Of a stretch of 64,000 nucleotides of DNA, positions 35,189-53,225 are shown piece by piece. This DNA is from a virus: IMG/VR virus record IMGVR_UViG_3300009285_003054, positions 1-64,000 of that record; one strand, given 5' to 3'. A program made the position numbers and the translations under genes. The stretch's first letter is position 1; each line of letters opens with the position of its first letter. The notes under the pieces were generated by a model, which was not told the origin of the DNA, did no database searches, and worked only from the letters and a program-made list of their open reading frames with translations.

Positions 35189-35845
35189 ATGGTAGATCAG
35201 GTCACTCGGGCGACACATACTTCTTTGCGGAAGGTCTTTAAGGTAGAACTTGTAGACGTAGGTACACTCTCCAAGGTCATCCACACGTGGGATAATGAGG
35301 TACCTGGGTATACCCGTGTCGGCATACTGGACCTAAAGCGAGGGGATCTGTTTCGTGTAGTGGATAATGATTGCACTCCTGAGTGTGGGGGTCGTCTCCA
35401 CGAGTTACATGAAAATGGTATGTTTATCTATCGAGCAGACAGTGATGGGGTGGCCATGCCACCCCCTGCCGAATCCGTGGTGCAGCTCACACCTGTCTTC
35501 TTTGTGAGTCCGCCATACACACCAGACAACGGGAAATTGTTCGAGGTGTTCCCATATGCAGCTGACAAATCTTGGTTTGGGTTACTGTTACCAAGTTTCG
35601 ATATCAGAGCTACCATCAATGTTTCTTTAGAAGATATTCAACAAATCCGACCTATGTGCTGCGATCGTGCTAAAAGTGGTGTGGTAGTCTATCGGCATTT
35701 ATTCACTGTGGGACTACGTCTCCCCGGATGGTGCATAAATGTCAATCAGTCCGGAATCCCTGCCGGAATCCCTGGTGGGGAACTAGAGGGAGTTCAATAC
35801 TGTCCATACTGTGGGGAAAAACTCCCAGATGTGGAGTGTGGCTAG
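35189..35845 (+). CDS. Hypothetical protein with C-terminal zinc ribbon
   Basis: The protein has 218 residues. The body is beta-rich and contains ECGGRL near residue 66. The C-terminus has YCPYCGEKL, half of a zinc ribbon whose other cysteines may be MCCD near 150. No known family is seen. It follows the resolvase by nine bases and precedes another Cys-containing protein. Confidence 0.65.
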   Translation: MVDQVTRATHTSLRKVFKVELVDVGTLSKVIHTWDNEVPGYTRVGILDLKRGDLFRVVDNDCTPECGGRLHELHENGMFIYRADSDGVAMPPPAESVVQLTPVFFVSPPYTPDNGKLFEVFPYAADKSWFGLLLPSFDIRATINVSLEDIQQIRPMCCDRAKSGVVVYRHLFTVGLRLPGWCINVNQSGIPAGIPGGELEGVQYCPYCGEKLPDVECG

Positions 35846-35849
35846 CCGA

Positions 35850-36599
35850 ATGACACATATCATTAATCGTAACCTGCTACCTGCTGCGCGTGCAGCAGGT
35901 ACTCGTGTATTACAGCGCTACCAGTTGCAGTTAAGGAGTCAATCCCTAGAAACCGATTTGGAATCACTCATCGGGGTATATTTTACAGCCCCTGTAGATT
36001 TCCGTAGGATCATCGAGAAGGTTTTTGAGATTCTGGGTTTGGTAGAAGTAATTAGTGCACTCAAGACATCCACACATATAATGGGCCTTACACATGCTTG
36101 TGGTGTGCTACACACCGTAGTAGTTTCTCCATGTGCAGATAAGGGTTGTCGCTTCCACAAGCATAACCAAAAAGAGAGTCTTAACTGCCTATTGGTATAC
36201 TCAAGGGGGAATCCGTTGGGTGTTAATCAGATTGCAGAGTTTCTGGGGGAGCCCAATGTAAAAGAGATTATCAAAGCCGCAGTTCAAAAGATGCGGCATG
36301 CGTCGATCAACGCAGCCAAGACCATAGCGGAGCTGAATGAGGATTTTGTGTTCCTTCACAACCTACGAGTATGTGGAAAGTGTGAGAGAAGGATAAAATC
36401 TAAACCGTATAAAGTGATCGACGGGGTGGCTTTTTGCTCCGAGCACTGTACTACTGTTTCCCCACCTGAGCATACACTACTAGAGGCCCGTACCGGAATA
36501 TGTGCAGCTACCCTGCTGCAGTGGGTGCGAGAAAACTATACAACAACTGCTGCCGCAGCGCAAGCCATGGGTGTCCCCGAGGCGATTCTGCGAGCATAA
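35850..36599 (+). CDS. Hypothetical protein with zinc-binding C-terminus
   Basis: The 249 residues run from the ATG at 35850, four bases after the previous stop; an earlier ATG at 35811 would overlap that gene. It is mostly helical. Cysteines are in CADKGCRFH near residue 94 and in CGKCERR...FCSEHC near 190, the latter a likely zinc finger. The last 40 residues could be a helix-turn-helix (WVRENYTTTAAAAQAMGV). It may be a DNA-binding regulator, not proven. Confidence 0.65.
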   Translation: MTHIINRNLLPAARAAGTRVLQRYQLQLRSQSLETDLESLIGVYFTAPVDFRRIIEKVFEILGLVEVISALKTSTHIMGLTHACGVLHTVVVSPCADKGCRFHKHNQKESLNCLLVYSRGNPLGVNQIAEFLGEPNVKEIIKAAVQKMRHASINAAKTIAELNEDFVFLHNLRVCGKCERRIKSKPYKVIDGVAFCSEHCTTVSPPEHTLLEARTGICAATLLQWVRENYTTTAAAAQAMGVPEAILRA

Positions 36600-36621
36600 G
36601 GGATCACAAAAGGAGTAAAAC

Positions 36622-37701
36622 ATGGAAGAACGTACACAGATGGGTATTGCTGGACGAATCCACCGCATGACCACTGTAAGTGATCGGATCGGAGAGCGGC
36701 TGCAGGCAAAGATGAACGATCGTGTCGGAGCCCGCCCTGACCTGTACTTGGGAGACTACCGAATGGCAGGTGCCAATCTGGCCACCGTCGCCATTGGCTA
36801 CAACCACGCGGATTACGGAACCCCCACTACATCGGAACTCTCAGAGTTTGTGATCAAAGCCAGTCTTGGAAGGCTCCGACCCCACGAGGCCACCCGCAGA
36901 GACAACTCAGGACGGAACACCATCACCCTCAACGTGGTGCACCAACGACCCTTCTCCCCCTTCTCCGAGATGCAGAGTCAACTTGCCCCCCTTGGAGGCA
37001 AACGGTATCTGCATGCGCAGACTAACGATGTCTGGGAGCTGGAAGATCAGGGTGGGTCCCCTATCGTCTACCGGGTTGCTGAAGAGAATCTCTCGGAAGT
37101 GCTCAGCCAGATGACCGGGCAGCTCATTCACCCCAGCACCACCCGGGTGGCATACACCGACAACGAAGGGACCCCTTACCCCTCCGCTGGAACACAAGTG
37201 AAGTTCTTTGGGATCGATGGACATGCCAGGTTGGCTACTGTAATGTCCGAGCCGGATCGCGAAGGCAACATGCACATCACAGGGGAGCAGTGTCCCCCAC
37301 GAATCCATGTCAACTCCGTAACTGAGGTATTCCGCACCGCCGAGTTGGATGGGGTGGTGCAGGACAAGCTGGAGAAGTACTTTGCAGAGATGTTCGGAGA
37401 CGCGCAGTACGCCAAGGATCTCGTCCGCCAAGCATCACCACAACCCCAGGTGGGTACCGGTGAGCAGTTGGTAGCGTTTCTGACTGACGGGGGGCTGTAC
37501 GATGTCAACGCAGCTACCATCGCGTTGGACAACATGAAGCGTACCCCCGGACAAGTCCACAGGCTGGGTCCGCAGAACGCATCGAGTATGGTGTTGGCGG
37601 CATACAACGGAAACGGCTTCGAGTGGGAAGTGGATACCGACGAAGCCGTGAAGGCATTGCAGGGTGGCAAGCAGACAAACAACCCTTTCGTACAGCAGTA
37701 G
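36622..37701 (+). CDS. Hypothetical protein, zero-frame product of a frameshift candidate
   Basis: The protein has 359 residues, with AAAAGGAG before the ATG. It has an unusually clean codon pattern and no recognised domain. Segments such as TLNVVHQRPFSPFSEMQ and GTQVKFFGIDGHARLATV suggest a beta-rich fold. Near its end lies a CCCTTTC slippery heptamer in the right phase with a downstream stem. A -1 shift there would extend it into the next frame (37690-37979), giving about 452 residues. Confidence 0.8.
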   Translation: MEERTQMGIAGRIHRMTTVSDRIGERLQAKMNDRVGARPDLYLGDYRMAGANLATVAIGYNHADYGTPTTSELSEFVIKASLGRLRPHEATRRDNSGRNTITLNVVHQRPFSPFSEMQSQLAPLGGKRYLHAQTNDVWELEDQGGSPIVYRVAEENLSEVLSQMTGQLIHPSTTRVAYTDNEGTPYPSAGTQVKFFGIDGHARLATVMSEPDREGNMHITGEQCPPRIHVNSVTEVFRTAELDGVVQDKLEKYFAEMFGDAQYAKDLVRQASPQPQVGTGEQLVAFLTDGGLYDVNAATIALDNMKRTPGQVHRLGPQNASSMVLAAYNGNGFEWEVDTDEAVKALQGGKQTNNPFVQQ

Positions 37702-37719
37702 CTCGGAAGAAAACCGAGC
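37683..37719 (+). promoter_or_regulatory. Candidate -1 programmed ribosomal frameshift site
   Basis: CCCTTTC (37683-37689) is phased C-CCT-TTC in the zero frame, the X-XXY-YYZ pattern for -1 slippage. After 11 bases a perfect 6-bp stem follows (GCTCGG 37701-37706 / CCGAGC 37714-37719, 7-base loop). The zero frame stops at 37699-37701. The -1 frame is open to 37979 and has no convincing start of its own. Confidence 0.6.
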
Positions 37720-37979
37720 CAATCCCGGTACCCTGGGTAGAATACGGGCATAAGTTCCATGTGTACAGTGACCCAGAGATACCTCCGAACACCATGCAGA
37801 GAATCGTGAAGAAGGTATACGATGTGGTTCAAGATGACTGTGAAATCAGAGTAGAGACCGATCGGAGTGGTATGGCCTACGTCGACGTTGTTGCCAATGG
37901 CCGCAAATACTCCGGGGACTTCCACCTTCGATCAGATAAGCAAGCCAAATACTTCCAACTCACTCCCGCCAAATCGTAA
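37690..37979 (+). CDS. -1 frame extension of the preceding gene (about 96 codons)
   Basis: Past the slippery site this frame encodes RTAVARKKTEPIPV, then WVEYGHKFHVYSD, a helical IVKKVYDVVQDD stretch and VDVVANGRKYSGDF, which reads as one small folded domain. No ATG with a ribosome site opens it: the open frame reaches back to 37623 only by overlapping the upstream gene, and the first ATG past the junction falls inside the domain. Expression as a frameshift fusion is therefore the best explanation. A rare-start separate gene is the alternative. Confidence 0.55.
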
Positions 37980-47355: not shown

Positions 47356-49914
47356 ATGAACTCACCGTGTGTCCTACCTACCGATGTTGATCCAAAGCGT
47401 ATACTCCATGTAGTATACAATTCCTTGAGTATCAACGAGTTACAGCAGCTCTACGATCGATGTGGGAGATCTACCAAAGCCATGCGTATTTGCTTGGGAA
47501 TTCGGGGGGTAGTCTCAAGCAAAAAGCTCAGTAGGGACCTCTATGACAAAGGGGTCCTGCTCCATCCCGATGATATGCTTGACCAGAGGCTAGGGGTGGC
47601 GGGTAAGACTCGATTGGAACTGAGCAAATACGCTGTATTCGATTTGGGGGATGGCTTTGACCCTGAGTCGATGATGGAAGATGCCATCGATTCTGATCTT
47701 GATCCATCCGTGTTCTCTGACATGGACATCCGAGAACTAGACAACCCCCCTAATTTCTTCGAGTACGTCACCGGAAGGAAATACCTCAACACCACGATCT
47801 TCCCGAGACAGTTCCAGATTCAGCTTGGATTTTTTGAAGAATTTTGTCCGTGGTGTAGTGACAAAGAATTTGTCAAAGACATCCATCTATCACCCTATCC
47901 TTCAGAGGATGGTATACATCGGAGACCATGGACTAACGATGAAATCCTTAGCAAAGTAACCCTCTACCAACACGGCAAGTGTCCAAAGTGTAAGCGTACA
48001 TACATTGACGCTTTCAATGACCCTAGACAACCTCATCGTTTCCCCAAGGAAGTGGACGCTTGCATTGGGCAGCGGGGTGGAAAAACCCGCATGACCGAAC
48101 ACATGATGTCGTACAACGAGACACGCTTCCACCTGCTTTCCCCCTCGCCACAGCAATTCTTCGGAGAAGACGCCACCCAGAAGTTCTCAGCTATCTATAC
48201 CGCCCTGGAGATGACACAAGCGCAAGACACTCTTTGGGGGGCATACCATCTTCGGGTATTGGCTGCTCCGTGGTGGCACAACTACCACAAATGGTTGGAT
48301 CATCATGGCAAACGACTAGGAGTAGAACTCTATCGTATCAAAGAGACATACCATTTCTATGCGAACACATTGCTCCATAGTGTCCTACGTCCCCCATTTG
48401 CGAAGAAGATGCGAGGCCGAACATCCTTTGATGGTGGCATAGATGAGATTGGTATGTTCGCAAAAAGGGAGGGGAGCATCGTTGCAAATGCCGACGAAGT
48501 CCACAAATCTATCGGCAACAGCTTGATGACACTCCGGGGGAAAGCGGATCAGCTTCTCCGGAGAGGGGTATTGGGTGTTCCCGCACCCGCACTCTTCTGC
48601 ATTTCATCTCCGTGGGAACTCCTTGATAAGATTATGACACTGGTACGGACAGTTGACAAAGATCCTACCCGAGTAGCATACCACTATCCCACTTGGGATT
48701 TCAACCCAAATCTTCATCGAGATGATCCACAGATGGAAGCCGAGTTTCTCAACGATCCGGTGGCAGCAGAGAGAGACTTCGGAGCTATCCCCCCTTTTGC
48801 GAAAGATCCGTTCCACCCAGTTCCCGATGCAATTGATTACCTGGAGGTTCCCGCACTCCACCAAGTGTTCATCCAGCAGATTAAGTATTGCACCACAAAG
48901 AGCGGAAAGCGTTTGGTTTATGCCGTGCCTCTGCGTATGCAATCCGATCATGTTACACCCAGATTGCTATGCTTGGACGCTGGTGAGTCCGATAACTCAT
49001 TTGCATTGACTCTCTGGAGATTGGTGGATTTACCTGCTCCACCGGCAGACACCATGGCTGAGTCAGACGACGATGACGACGATGACGAGGATATCCGGGT
49101 GGTAATGGCGGCGATAGCAGCAGAGAAACACACGAAAGTACCTGGTGATGAGCATCGTGGCAGAGTTACTTACATGCAGCTCGACGGGGCTATTGAGGTA
49201 CAACCCTTTGTAAACGAAAGTGGATACCAGTATAGGGTGTCTTTCTCAAAGATGTGGAAGTACTGTATTGAACCCATCATTCGGGCATTCAATCTGGTGG
49301 GGGTTATTGGGGACCGGTGGAACATCACACAGATTATGAACTCAATTGAAGAGTTAGGGGTATACACCGAACAATACAGCTTGGTGTGGTCGGATTTCCT
49401 TGCATTCAAAGAGAAGACCAGTGCCCGCGAACTCCGACTCCCATCCCCCGAACGACCATTTACGGATGTCTACACAGACTACGACAAAGCTGTCCGTGGA
49501 GCACCGATTCTACATTTAGTCGTACAGTACAAGACTGTACGCCAAGTAGGGCGTACAGTTACCAAACCACCCAGCGGTACGGATGATCTTTACCGTACTA
49601 TGGTATTAGCACATCGGTTTGCCTTCAGTGAGAAGGCAGTCAAAGAGATTGACGGGAGGGAAATAAGCTTTTTCGAGCTGCTCCATCGTGAAGGAAAGAT
49701 GGAGCGAGTAAACCGCGCAGTTTCAGTTATCATGTTGCATGGTGGGAGTGGTAGCTCATCCCCAATGGCACAGGTGGGTGGTGGATTTACCCGGCTAGGT
49801 GGGTACGTTTCGAGGGGTGGTGCAGCTGGGGGGGTTACCGGTGGGAACTCATACTCTAACGTTGCCACCCACGGTGGGAAGGGTGGGGACAGTCCTAGTA
49901 CGCGGAGACAATGA
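47356..49914 (+). CDS. terL: Terminase large subunit with zinc-finger insertion
   Basis: This is the packaging motor and headful or site-specific nuclease. Of 852 residues, a Walker A-like IGQRGGKTRM lies near residue 238 and a Walker B-like SFDGGIDEIGMF near 360. The nuclease domain begins with RLLCLDAGESDNSF near 535. Two Cys pairs (FCPWC, KCPKC) before the ATPase core make a zinc insertion unusual for terminases. An acidic stretch of Asp near 575 sits inside the nuclease domain, and the C-terminus is Gly/Ser-rich. Gene order (terminase, portal, protease, scaffold, capsid) supports the call. Confidence 0.85.
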   Translation: MNSPCVLPTDVDPKRILHVVYNSLSINELQQLYDRCGRSTKAMRICLGIRGVVSSKKLSRDLYDKGVLLHPDDMLDQRLGVAGKTRLELSKYAVFDLGDGFDPESMMEDAIDSDLDPSVFSDMDIRELDNPPNFFEYVTGRKYLNTTIFPRQFQIQLGFFEEFCPWCSDKEFVKDIHLSPYPSEDGIHRRPWTNDEILSKVTLYQHGKCPKCKRTYIDAFNDPRQPHRFPKEVDACIGQRGGKTRMTEHMMSYNETRFHLLSPSPQQFFGEDATQKFSAIYTALEMTQAQDTLWGAYHLRVLAAPWWHNYHKWLDHHGKRLGVELYRIKETYHFYANTLLHSVLRPPFAKKMRGRTSFDGGIDEIGMFAKREGSIVANADEVHKSIGNSLMTLRGKADQLLRRGVLGVPAPALFCISSPWELLDKIMTLVRTVDKDPTRVAYHYPTWDFNPNLHRDDPQMEAEFLNDPVAAERDFGAIPPFAKDPFHPVPDAIDYLEVPALHQVFIQQIKYCTTKSGKRLVYAVPLRMQSDHVTPRLLCLDAGESDNSFALTLWRLVDLPAPPADTMAESDDDDDDDEDIRVVMAAIAAEKHTKVPGDEHRGRVTYMQLDGAIEVQPFVNESGYQYRVSFSKMWKYCIEPIIRAFNLVGVIGDRWNITQIMNSIEELGVYTEQYSLVWSDFLAFKEKTSARELRLPSPERPFTDVYTDYDKAVRGAPILHLVVQYKTVRQVGRTVTKPPSGTDDLYRTMVLAHRFAFSEKAVKEIDGREISFFELLHREGKMERVNRAVSVIMLHGGSGSSSPMAQVGGGFTRLGGYVSRGGAAGGVTGGNSYSNVATHGGKGGDSPSTRRQ

Positions 49915-50672: not shown

Positions 50673-53225
50673 ATGTTCAAGACATACGACCAGGACAAAT
50701 CCGGGCAACCCCTAGCTGGTCAGCCAGTGTCTGGTCTAGTGCGTACTGGAATTGTACATCATCGTGACTCCACACCTGCGTCCAGACCACCCACATCCCG
50801 TACACCATCTATCCGAACTGCTTCTACATCATCCTCCAGTAGCAGTGGGGGTGGTGGGTACGGGGTAGAGCGCTATAACCCCGCATTTGATCGTCTGGAT
50901 GAGGGGAGTGTAGTAGAAGACTGGATTCCCCGCGATCAACCAGGGATTAACAAGATGCTCCGGATGATCTACCTACGGGATGAGGTAGGTGGTCCGATGG
51001 TAGACATCTACAAAGAGATGGCATGGTCGGACTACGATCTGTTGGGGATGGAAGACAAAGAAATGCTCAGACCGTATGAGGATACGGCACGGTCGATGGA
51101 CTTCCTCTCAGTCCTCCCAGAGGTATCTTCCGAGGATCTGGTAATCGGACGGAGCATCAGCTCACTCCTTTGGGATGATACCAAAGGGATCTTTGTGGGA
51201 ATGGTGCCCCACGACCCTGATTTTTGTCGAATAACACCCATGCCTATCTTTGGGCATGACCCAATGGTTGACTTACGGGCGTCCCCAGGGTGGAAAGCGT
51301 TTGCTGACTCTGATGATGAGCGAGTAGTAGACGTAAGATCCACGCTGCCTCCCCGGATTATGGAGACCCTCTCTAATTCCGGATTCATCCCGTTGGATCC
51401 GATTAACACTGCCTTCATTCGGCGCCGTTGTGGTAGTTACGATCATGTAGGGACCTCAATTTACTCCCGCCTAGTGAACTTCATAGCCATCCAGAAAGCG
51501 TTGTTAGACACTACAGTAGTAAGTCTCAGACGGCGTGCAGCCGGAGTACTCCACATCATTGCCGGAGATGAGAGATGGGAGCCAACGCAAGAAGAACTCT
51601 CTGCTCTAGCAGGGATGTGGATGCAGGCCGAAGAGGACCAGGGTGGTGGGATTGTCGCTACCCGAAGTGGGGTTCAAGCAGATCGGGGGGCATCGGCTCA
51701 AGGGGATGCCTGGAAACTTTCGGACGAGTGGGCTTTTCTCTCCGAGGGGAAGATGCGGGCATTAGGAGTGTCAGACGCATTCTTAAGCGGAGAGAGCACG
51801 TTCTGCGTGGTTGGAAGTACACTGATTCTGACGAAGGATGGGCTGAAACGGATTGATTCCTTGGCTGATCGATCAAACGGGGATCACCAACACCTAAGAG
51901 TTCAAGTACAATCTCGGGATGGGCTTGGCTGGACGAGCCAATGGCACTACAACGGAGAAAAGCCTACTCTGATCTTGCATTTGGATAATGGCGCATCAAT
52001 CGAATGCACCTACAATCACAAAATCCTAACAGCATCTCTGGAGTATGTTGAAGCGGGCGAACTGCTTCCAGGGGACAGCGTACGAACATTTGATGGTGGG
52101 TATGGTTACGCCGTTATTACCCAGGTCATGGACAACGGGATCAAACCGGTTTACGATCTGACCATGGAAAAAGGATTTGAACCTGCGTTTGTGGCCAACG
52201 GGTTGGTCATCCATAACTCGAATATGGAAATGGCTTTGTCAGTTTTTCTGGAACGACTCCGTGGATTCCGTGAACACCTCACCAACCAGTTCATCTACCG
52301 TAGAATCTTTCACACCATCGCGAGGGCACATGGGTTCGTCCGTCCGGAAAAGAATACGCCCCACGGTAGAAGACAAGCTGCACTAATGCCCACCCGAGAG
52401 GCCATGAAAATCGATCCTACTCGGTTGATCGTTCCGGAGTTGCGGTGGCATAAGAGTTTGCACCCGGTGGGGGATGAGTCATACCTTACCATCCTTGATC
52501 GTATGAAAGAGGCTGGCTTACCGGTTACCCTGGAGCATTACGCATCAGCGGGAGGATTCAACCTTCGCCGGGCGATGACCATGCTGGACACTGATGTTAA
52601 GATGCGTGAGAAGCTCAAAGATTGGGTATCCGCCACCGGTGGGGGTGGGATGGGGATGGGTGGCTCCGAAGGAGGATCTGAGGGGGAAGATAGTGACGAA
52701 GGGGGAGGTGGCCCATCCATCTTCGGGAAAGTCCGATACCCATTGTCAGGGATCACCAAACGAAGTGAATTACGCACGGCTGCTCCCAGAGTGGTAGGAG
52801 AAATCCCCATCTGGGATCGCACCAACAAGTTCTGTGGTCTGTCGAAGCGGGAAGCGCAACAGGCGATGGAGAAGGTTATCCCCTGTATCCTCCGGGATGG
52901 GGGGAGACCCCCTACCAAGCAATTACTACTCGCATCTGGTTTGACGGGGCGGAAGGCGTCAGCTTTCCATTACTTACTTACCCGGACAGGACTCACACCT
53001 GAGTATGCAATGCCAGAAAAAGTGCAGATTAGTATTACAGAACACTTGGCCACCCGGACTAATAGGAAGACTGCACTTCAGGAGGTTCAAGCGTTGGCTA
53101 GATGTGCAAAAGCACAATCAACCTCCTCCCGGAAGAGCGACTCATTGGGCAGTCGAATCAGAGGACCTGAATTAACCCAACGTGAGTTTCTCACTGGACA
53201 CATTGAGAAAGAGATTCCGAAATGA
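50673..53225 (+). CDS. Portal protein interrupted by a mini-intein
   Basis: The 850-residue translation contains a 138-residue intein (separate entry), leaving a 712-residue portal. The first 70 residues are Ser/Thr/Pro-rich and flexible. The body has the portal-like YDLLGMEDKEM start and, after the intein, an SNMEMALSVFLERLRGFREHL segment. The joined sequence LSGESTF-SNMEMAL matches the conserved portal clip/stem motif. A Gly/Glu-rich linker is near residue 655. It sits between terminase and protease, as expected. The ribosome site at 50673 is weak. Confidence 0.85.
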   Translation: MFKTYDQDKSGQPLAGQPVSGLVRTGIVHHRDSTPASRPPTSRTPSIRTASTSSSSSSGGGGYGVERYNPAFDRLDEGSVVEDWIPRDQPGINKMLRMIYLRDEVGGPMVDIYKEMAWSDYDLLGMEDKEMLRPYEDTARSMDFLSVLPEVSSEDLVIGRSISSLLWDDTKGIFVGMVPHDPDFCRITPMPIFGHDPMVDLRASPGWKAFADSDDERVVDVRSTLPPRIMETLSNSGFIPLDPINTAFIRRRCGSYDHVGTSIYSRLVNFIAIQKALLDTTVVSLRRRAAGVLHIIAGDERWEPTQEELSALAGMWMQAEEDQGGGIVATRSGVQADRGASAQGDAWKLSDEWAFLSEGKMRALGVSDAFLSGESTFCVVGSTLILTKDGLKRIDSLADRSNGDHQHLRVQVQSRDGLGWTSQWHYNGEKPTLILHLDNGASIECTYNHKILTASLEYVEAGELLPGDSVRTFDGGYGYAVITQVMDNGIKPVYDLTMEKGFEPAFVANGLVIHNSNMEMALSVFLERLRGFREHLTNQFIYRRIFHTIARAHGFVRPEKNTPHGRRQAALMPTREAMKIDPTRLIVPELRWHKSLHPVGDESYLTILDRMKEAGLPVTLEHYASAGGFNLRRAMTMLDTDVKMREKLKDWVSATGGGGMGMGGSEGGSEGEDSDEGGGGPSIFGKVRYPLSGITKRSELRTAAPRVVGEIPIWDRTNKFCGLSKREAQQAMEKVIPCILRDGGRPPTKQLLLASGLTGRKASAFHYLLTRTGLTPEYAMPEKVQISITEHLATRTNRKTALQEVQALARCAKAQSTSSRKSDSLGSRIRGPELTQREFLTGHIEKEIPK
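51804..52217 (+). other. Mini-intein (no homing endonuclease) in the portal gene
   Basis: Splicing block A begins with Cys1 (CVVGSTLILTKDG), block B is SIECTYNHKILT, and blocks F/G are KPVYDLTMEKGFEPAFVANG then LVIHN, followed by Ser+1. All catalytic residues are present (Cys1, block B Thr and His, penultimate His, terminal Asn, Ser+1). At 138 residues there is no room for an endonuclease, so it can splice but not home. It sits in the highly conserved portal motif, typical of inteins. Confidence 0.92.

Follow-up and report, generated by a model that had tools for sequence, protein, structure and literature searches.

C-terminal extensions made by -1 frameshifting are known in gene 10 of T7 and T3 and in other phages, and the occurrence of Ig-like domains both in-frame and out-of-frame has been explained by chance landing (PMC5009743). 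The extended virion proteins of T7 (gene 10A/10B), T3, A2 and A118/A500 are minority products of a -1 shift near the stop, by which the phage protein gains a C-terminal domain (PMC5009743). In the lambda G/GT tail assembly chaperones the -1 frameshift is likewise placed toward the 3' end of the gene, as is the one proposed here. In E. coli, C_CC.U_UU.C is a high-level frameshift motif, H_HH.U_UU.Y is an efficient class, and stimulatory structures mostly start 5-8 nt downstream (PMC4066793); the usual spacer range is given as 5-8 or 5-9 nt (PMC4066793, PMC5009743).

The present locus plausibly represents a further example of such frameshift extension, as judged from its sequence, rather than a new kind of mechanism. 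It differs from the T7 10A/10B group in that the protein being extended is no known capsid or tail protein, the searches made gave no Ig-like match for the extension, and the locus is known from sequence alone, so that both products are predicted. Its gene order, as far as seen, differs from that of lambda G/GT, and no chaperone or tape-measure profile match was obtained for the gene or for the neighbours tested. The window, i.e., the whole stretch of DNA analysed, comprises bases 1-64000 of a virus record of 176,803 bases. A terminase gene (47356-49914) and a portal gene (50673-53225) in the window both match phage profiles, indicating a tailed phage, and the terminase and primase have distant kin in large phages of Pseudomonas, Achromobacter, Vibrio, Rhizobium and others. 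The elements of the locus are as follows.

36610-36615, + strand: Shine-Dalgarno sequence AAGGAG of the zero-frame gene, read in the sequence (duplex energy -8.2 kcal/mol)
36622-37701, + strand: zero-frame gene, 359 aa, ATG start, a divergent member of a PHROG 17573-like family
37683-37689, + strand: slippery heptamer C_CCT_TTC in X_XXY_YYZ phase, read in the sequence
37689-37979, + strand: -1 frame extension of 96 codons plus TAA (37977-37979), indicated by coding score, fold and the lack of a start with a Shine-Dalgarno sequence
37690-37700, + strand: 11-nt spacer, read in the sequence
37699-37701, + strand: zero-frame stop TAG, read in the sequence
37701-37719, + strand: predicted stem-loop with a perfect 6-bp stem and a 7-nt loop (-8.7 kcal/mol)
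37724-37737, + strand: second small hairpin just past the stem, predicted only

Two side observations were made on other large genes of the record. The portal ORF (850 aa) matches, besides the portal profile, part of the terminase profile phrog_17415 with its residues 378-490; an insert common to portal and terminase genes, e.g., an intein, would explain this. Four large ORFs of 857-1195 aa (L003:1908-4688 minus, L003:12885-16124 minus, L005:3362-6949 and L005:9662-12235 minus) gave no PHROG match at 0.001.

The initial annotation had proposed a CCCTTTC heptamer in the correct phase, a perfect GC-rich 6-bp stem after 11 bases, a zero frame ending at the stem, and a -1 frame open for about 96 codons, and all of these were confirmed. 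The heptamer lies in phase five codons ahead of the zero-frame stop, and the stem is formed by GCTCGG (37701-37706) and CCGAGC (37714-37719), its first base being the G of the TAG. Product lengths, previously given as 359 and about 452 residues, were recomputed as 359 and 452 aa. In-phase heptamers of the C_CCT_TTC type occur once per 527 codons in the record; the chance of finding one is about 1% in the last five codons and about 13% over the full 71-codon overlap of the two frames. Folding of the 51 nt past the heptamer was more stable than that of 197 out of 200 shuffled versions (z -2.6). However, about 12% of random coding points in the record have a stem that reaches -9 kcal/mol or better at a spacer of 4-12, and by itself the stem is therefore only weak evidence; a narrower estimate of 0.33%, counting exactly this kind of perfect stem, defined the structure too narrowly, and the 12% was used instead. 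The 11-nt spacer, over the usual length, and the shortness of the stem were counted against frameshifting. Two further candidates were rejected: an upstream internal Shine-Dalgarno-like stimulator (-7.7 kcal/mol), which is matched by 24% of background points, and transcriptional slippage, as the site has no homopolymer of sufficient length.

The -1 frame is clearly coding. With codon log-odds derived from a training set of 93 large ORFs of the record, 37704-37976 scored 0.167 bits per codon, as compared with 0.123 +/- 0.081 for real genes and a wrong-frame 99th percentile of 0.024, in agreement with the earlier description of this stretch as protein-like. The claim that it has no good start of its own held as well, since no start with a convincing Shine-Dalgarno sequence was found: the candidates GTG 37623, GTG 37761, ATG 37794 and ATC/ATT have duplex energies of -2.5 to -4.0 kcal/mol, the medians being -4.1 for random 20-mers and -7.0 for genes. 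GTG 37824 is the sole start with a better value (-6.2 kcal/mol), but it lies within the predicted domain. Folded alone without an alignment (98 residues), the extension is predicted to form a compact b-a-b-b-b core with a pLDDT of about 80 (74-85 over residues 21-80), and in the 452-aa form it would constitute a basic C-terminal domain of 96 residues (pI 9.0). Structural comparison with Foldseek and VIA-align frequently returned HPF/YfiA-type proteins (E 0.004-0.03, Z up to 6.0), interspersed with unrelated rows that scored equally well; no Ig-like fold was among the structural matches listed. The b-a-b-b-b(-a) order of the HPF/YfiA ribosome-hibernation fold is similar to that of the predicted extension, and HPF or protein Y accounts for many of the weak structural matches, but the scores are too low to tell kinship from a shared arrangement, and there was no sequence match. 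We therefore take an HPF-like nature of this modelled domain as a lead only.

The 359-aa protein itself gave no match at E <= 1 in a direct PHROG profile search, and its predicted fold has a mean pLDDT of 44. Its link to PHROG 17573 consists of a profile-profile comparison, in which a profile of eight distant proteins matched the core at 96.5% probability over about residues 30-270, plus a weak HMM match (E 0.002). The family occurs in large phages such as GR7B, Yoloswag, NCTB and Voja-6, in which the core is alignable with that of the window protein; unlike the window gene, its members have neither the C-terminal region nor a frameshift. These distant proteins stop near residue 270 of the window protein, before the C-terminal region, and no heptamer is found near the ends of their genes. 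The family gene adjoins a head-tail connector gene in four phages, coming after it in several, and because of this position the 359-aa protein probably has a role in virion morphogenesis.

Relatives closer than these proved scarce. Single-protein scans of IMG/VR with the 359-aa protein, the extension, the primase and TerL gave no confirmed relative, GTDB scans found none, and tblastn against phage records found nothing for the 359-aa part, the extension or the protein of G001, described below. A TerL alignment scan of IMG/VR yielded 67 loci including one close kin, L014 (G001), a 52-kb contig with a TerL identity of 59%; alignment scans with the 359-aa protein plus its upstream neighbour found G001 again. 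The G001 gene is 44% identical to the window gene and forms a single frame of 427 aa. In this one close relative the heptamer is absent and there is no frame change: G001 reads on as ...DNSPFGKLVEK... where the window phage has ...TNNPF and then changes frame, the N-x-P-F motif being common to both. The upstream neighbour (35811-36599, 262 aa) adjoins the same gene in G001, where it is 40% identical; it contains CxxC-type cysteine pairs and matched nothing in PHROG and Pfam searches.

Taken together, the coding usage, the lack of a start with a Shine-Dalgarno sequence, the foldable domain and the in-frame tail of G001 at the same point provide good support for the -1 frame as a translated C-terminal continuation. 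This part of the original proposal, a programmed -1 frameshift giving an extended protein, thus stands; programmed slippage is the best explanation only, as G001 has neither heptamer nor frame change. We consider it reasonably probable that the C-terminal add-on is reached via -1 frameshifting. We infer the slippage and its rate, the role of the stem and the functions suggested here for domain and protein. The majority of ribosomes would terminate at TAG 37699-37701 to give the 359-aa protein, while in a minority the tRNA-Pro paired with CCU and the tRNA-Phe paired with UUC would slip by -1 to CCC UUU, possibly aided by the downstream stem-loop, and these ribosomes would continue to 37976 to yield a 452-aa form with the compact C-terminal domain. 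A more elaborate proposal, in which C_CCU_UUY slippage at two or more genes would add an HPF-like, possibly ribosome- or RNA-binding domain to a minority of morphogenesis-protein copies, is very doubtful.

The absence of the heptamer from G001 and, near their gene ends, from the distant family members was counted against frameshifting. A different history is that a single base dropped out, during assembly or in the phage itself, and a once continuous gene is now split over two frames. If AAC CCC TTT CGT loses one C, precisely the observed AACAACCCTTTCGT results and the heptamer arises as a by-product, so the heptamer is not fully independent evidence. Moreover, the G001 gene lies in one frame, with its tail following N-S-P-F, and the record is a metagenome contig for which the IMG/VR scans found no second sequence of the same species. 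However, when one-base losses were simulated in the normal genes of the record, 2.0% of the cases had an in-phase heptamer <=30 nt from the new stop and 7.7-8.6% had one at some position in the overlap, and losses from runs of 4 or more placed a heptamer at the deletion point in 3.2%. Among the listed gene ends, no other seems broken without a heptamer, so there is no sign that indels are frequent. No homology was detected between the G001 tail and the extension of the window phage (local score 19, as compared with a shuffle mean of 22), so G001 is not proof that the ancestor of the window tail was in frame. The simulations and the stem frequency of about 12% together favor frameshifting, and such a base loss appears rather unlikely; we keep our preference for frameshifting modest, and do not rate the loss lower, because a single metagenome contig carries an appreciable prior for an indel.

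Less likely still is an independent small gene in the -1 frame with an internal start (GTG 37623, GTG 37761, ATG 37794 or a rare ATC/ATT), perhaps termination-coupled at 37701. The coding signal amounts to 3.5 bits at 37683-37721, about 1 bit (nearly neutral) at 37722-37793 and 11.6 bits past 37794; this distribution was counted against frameshifting. In favor of a separate gene, the strongest stretch comes after ATG 37794, and termination-coupled starts need less of a Shine-Dalgarno sequence. Nevertheless, the duplex energies given above place the candidate starts at or below the random level, the better GTG 37824 is inside the predicted domain, and a start at ATG 37794 would lose the first predicted strand (residues 25-29). 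That the arrangement is due to chance and the -1 frame is untranslated is extremely improbable: although in-phase sites combining a heptamer with an open frame are no commoner than out-of-phase ones, the codon usage exceeds the 99th percentile of wrong frames and the sequence is foldable.

A scan of the whole record by the stem rule given above gave 8 in-phase candidates, as compared with 5 and 6 in two out-of-phase controls. There is thus no overall excess of such sites across the record, which was counted against frameshifting; the best of the 8 were the 37683 locus and one other. Of the gene ends listed, just two run on into a coding -1 frame that has no nearby start or a distant one at most; both carry C_CCT_TTY. 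A second startless -1 candidate was observed as follows.

L003:5365-6150 (record 89365-90150), minus strand: -1 candidate with heptamer C_CCT_TTT at L003 5392-5386 (record 89392-89386)

This site has a 6-nt spacer and, in the scan, a predicted stem of -12.9 kcal/mol; its -1 frame is open for 226 codons beyond the stop, the first start being a TTG 36 codons on without a Shine-Dalgarno sequence. The stretch ahead of the TTG scores -0.04, i.e., not coding, and the site may therefore be an ordinary gap.

If the proposed frameshifting is real, the window phage would provide a frameshift-added C-terminal domain in a phage gene other than the tail-chaperone and coat genes in which this is usually seen. 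One phage would then add a domain by frameshifting where a relative has its tail in frame, which is the pattern proposed for Ig-like domains (PMC5009743). The locus would also be a caution that gene callers overlook such extensions in large uncultured phages.
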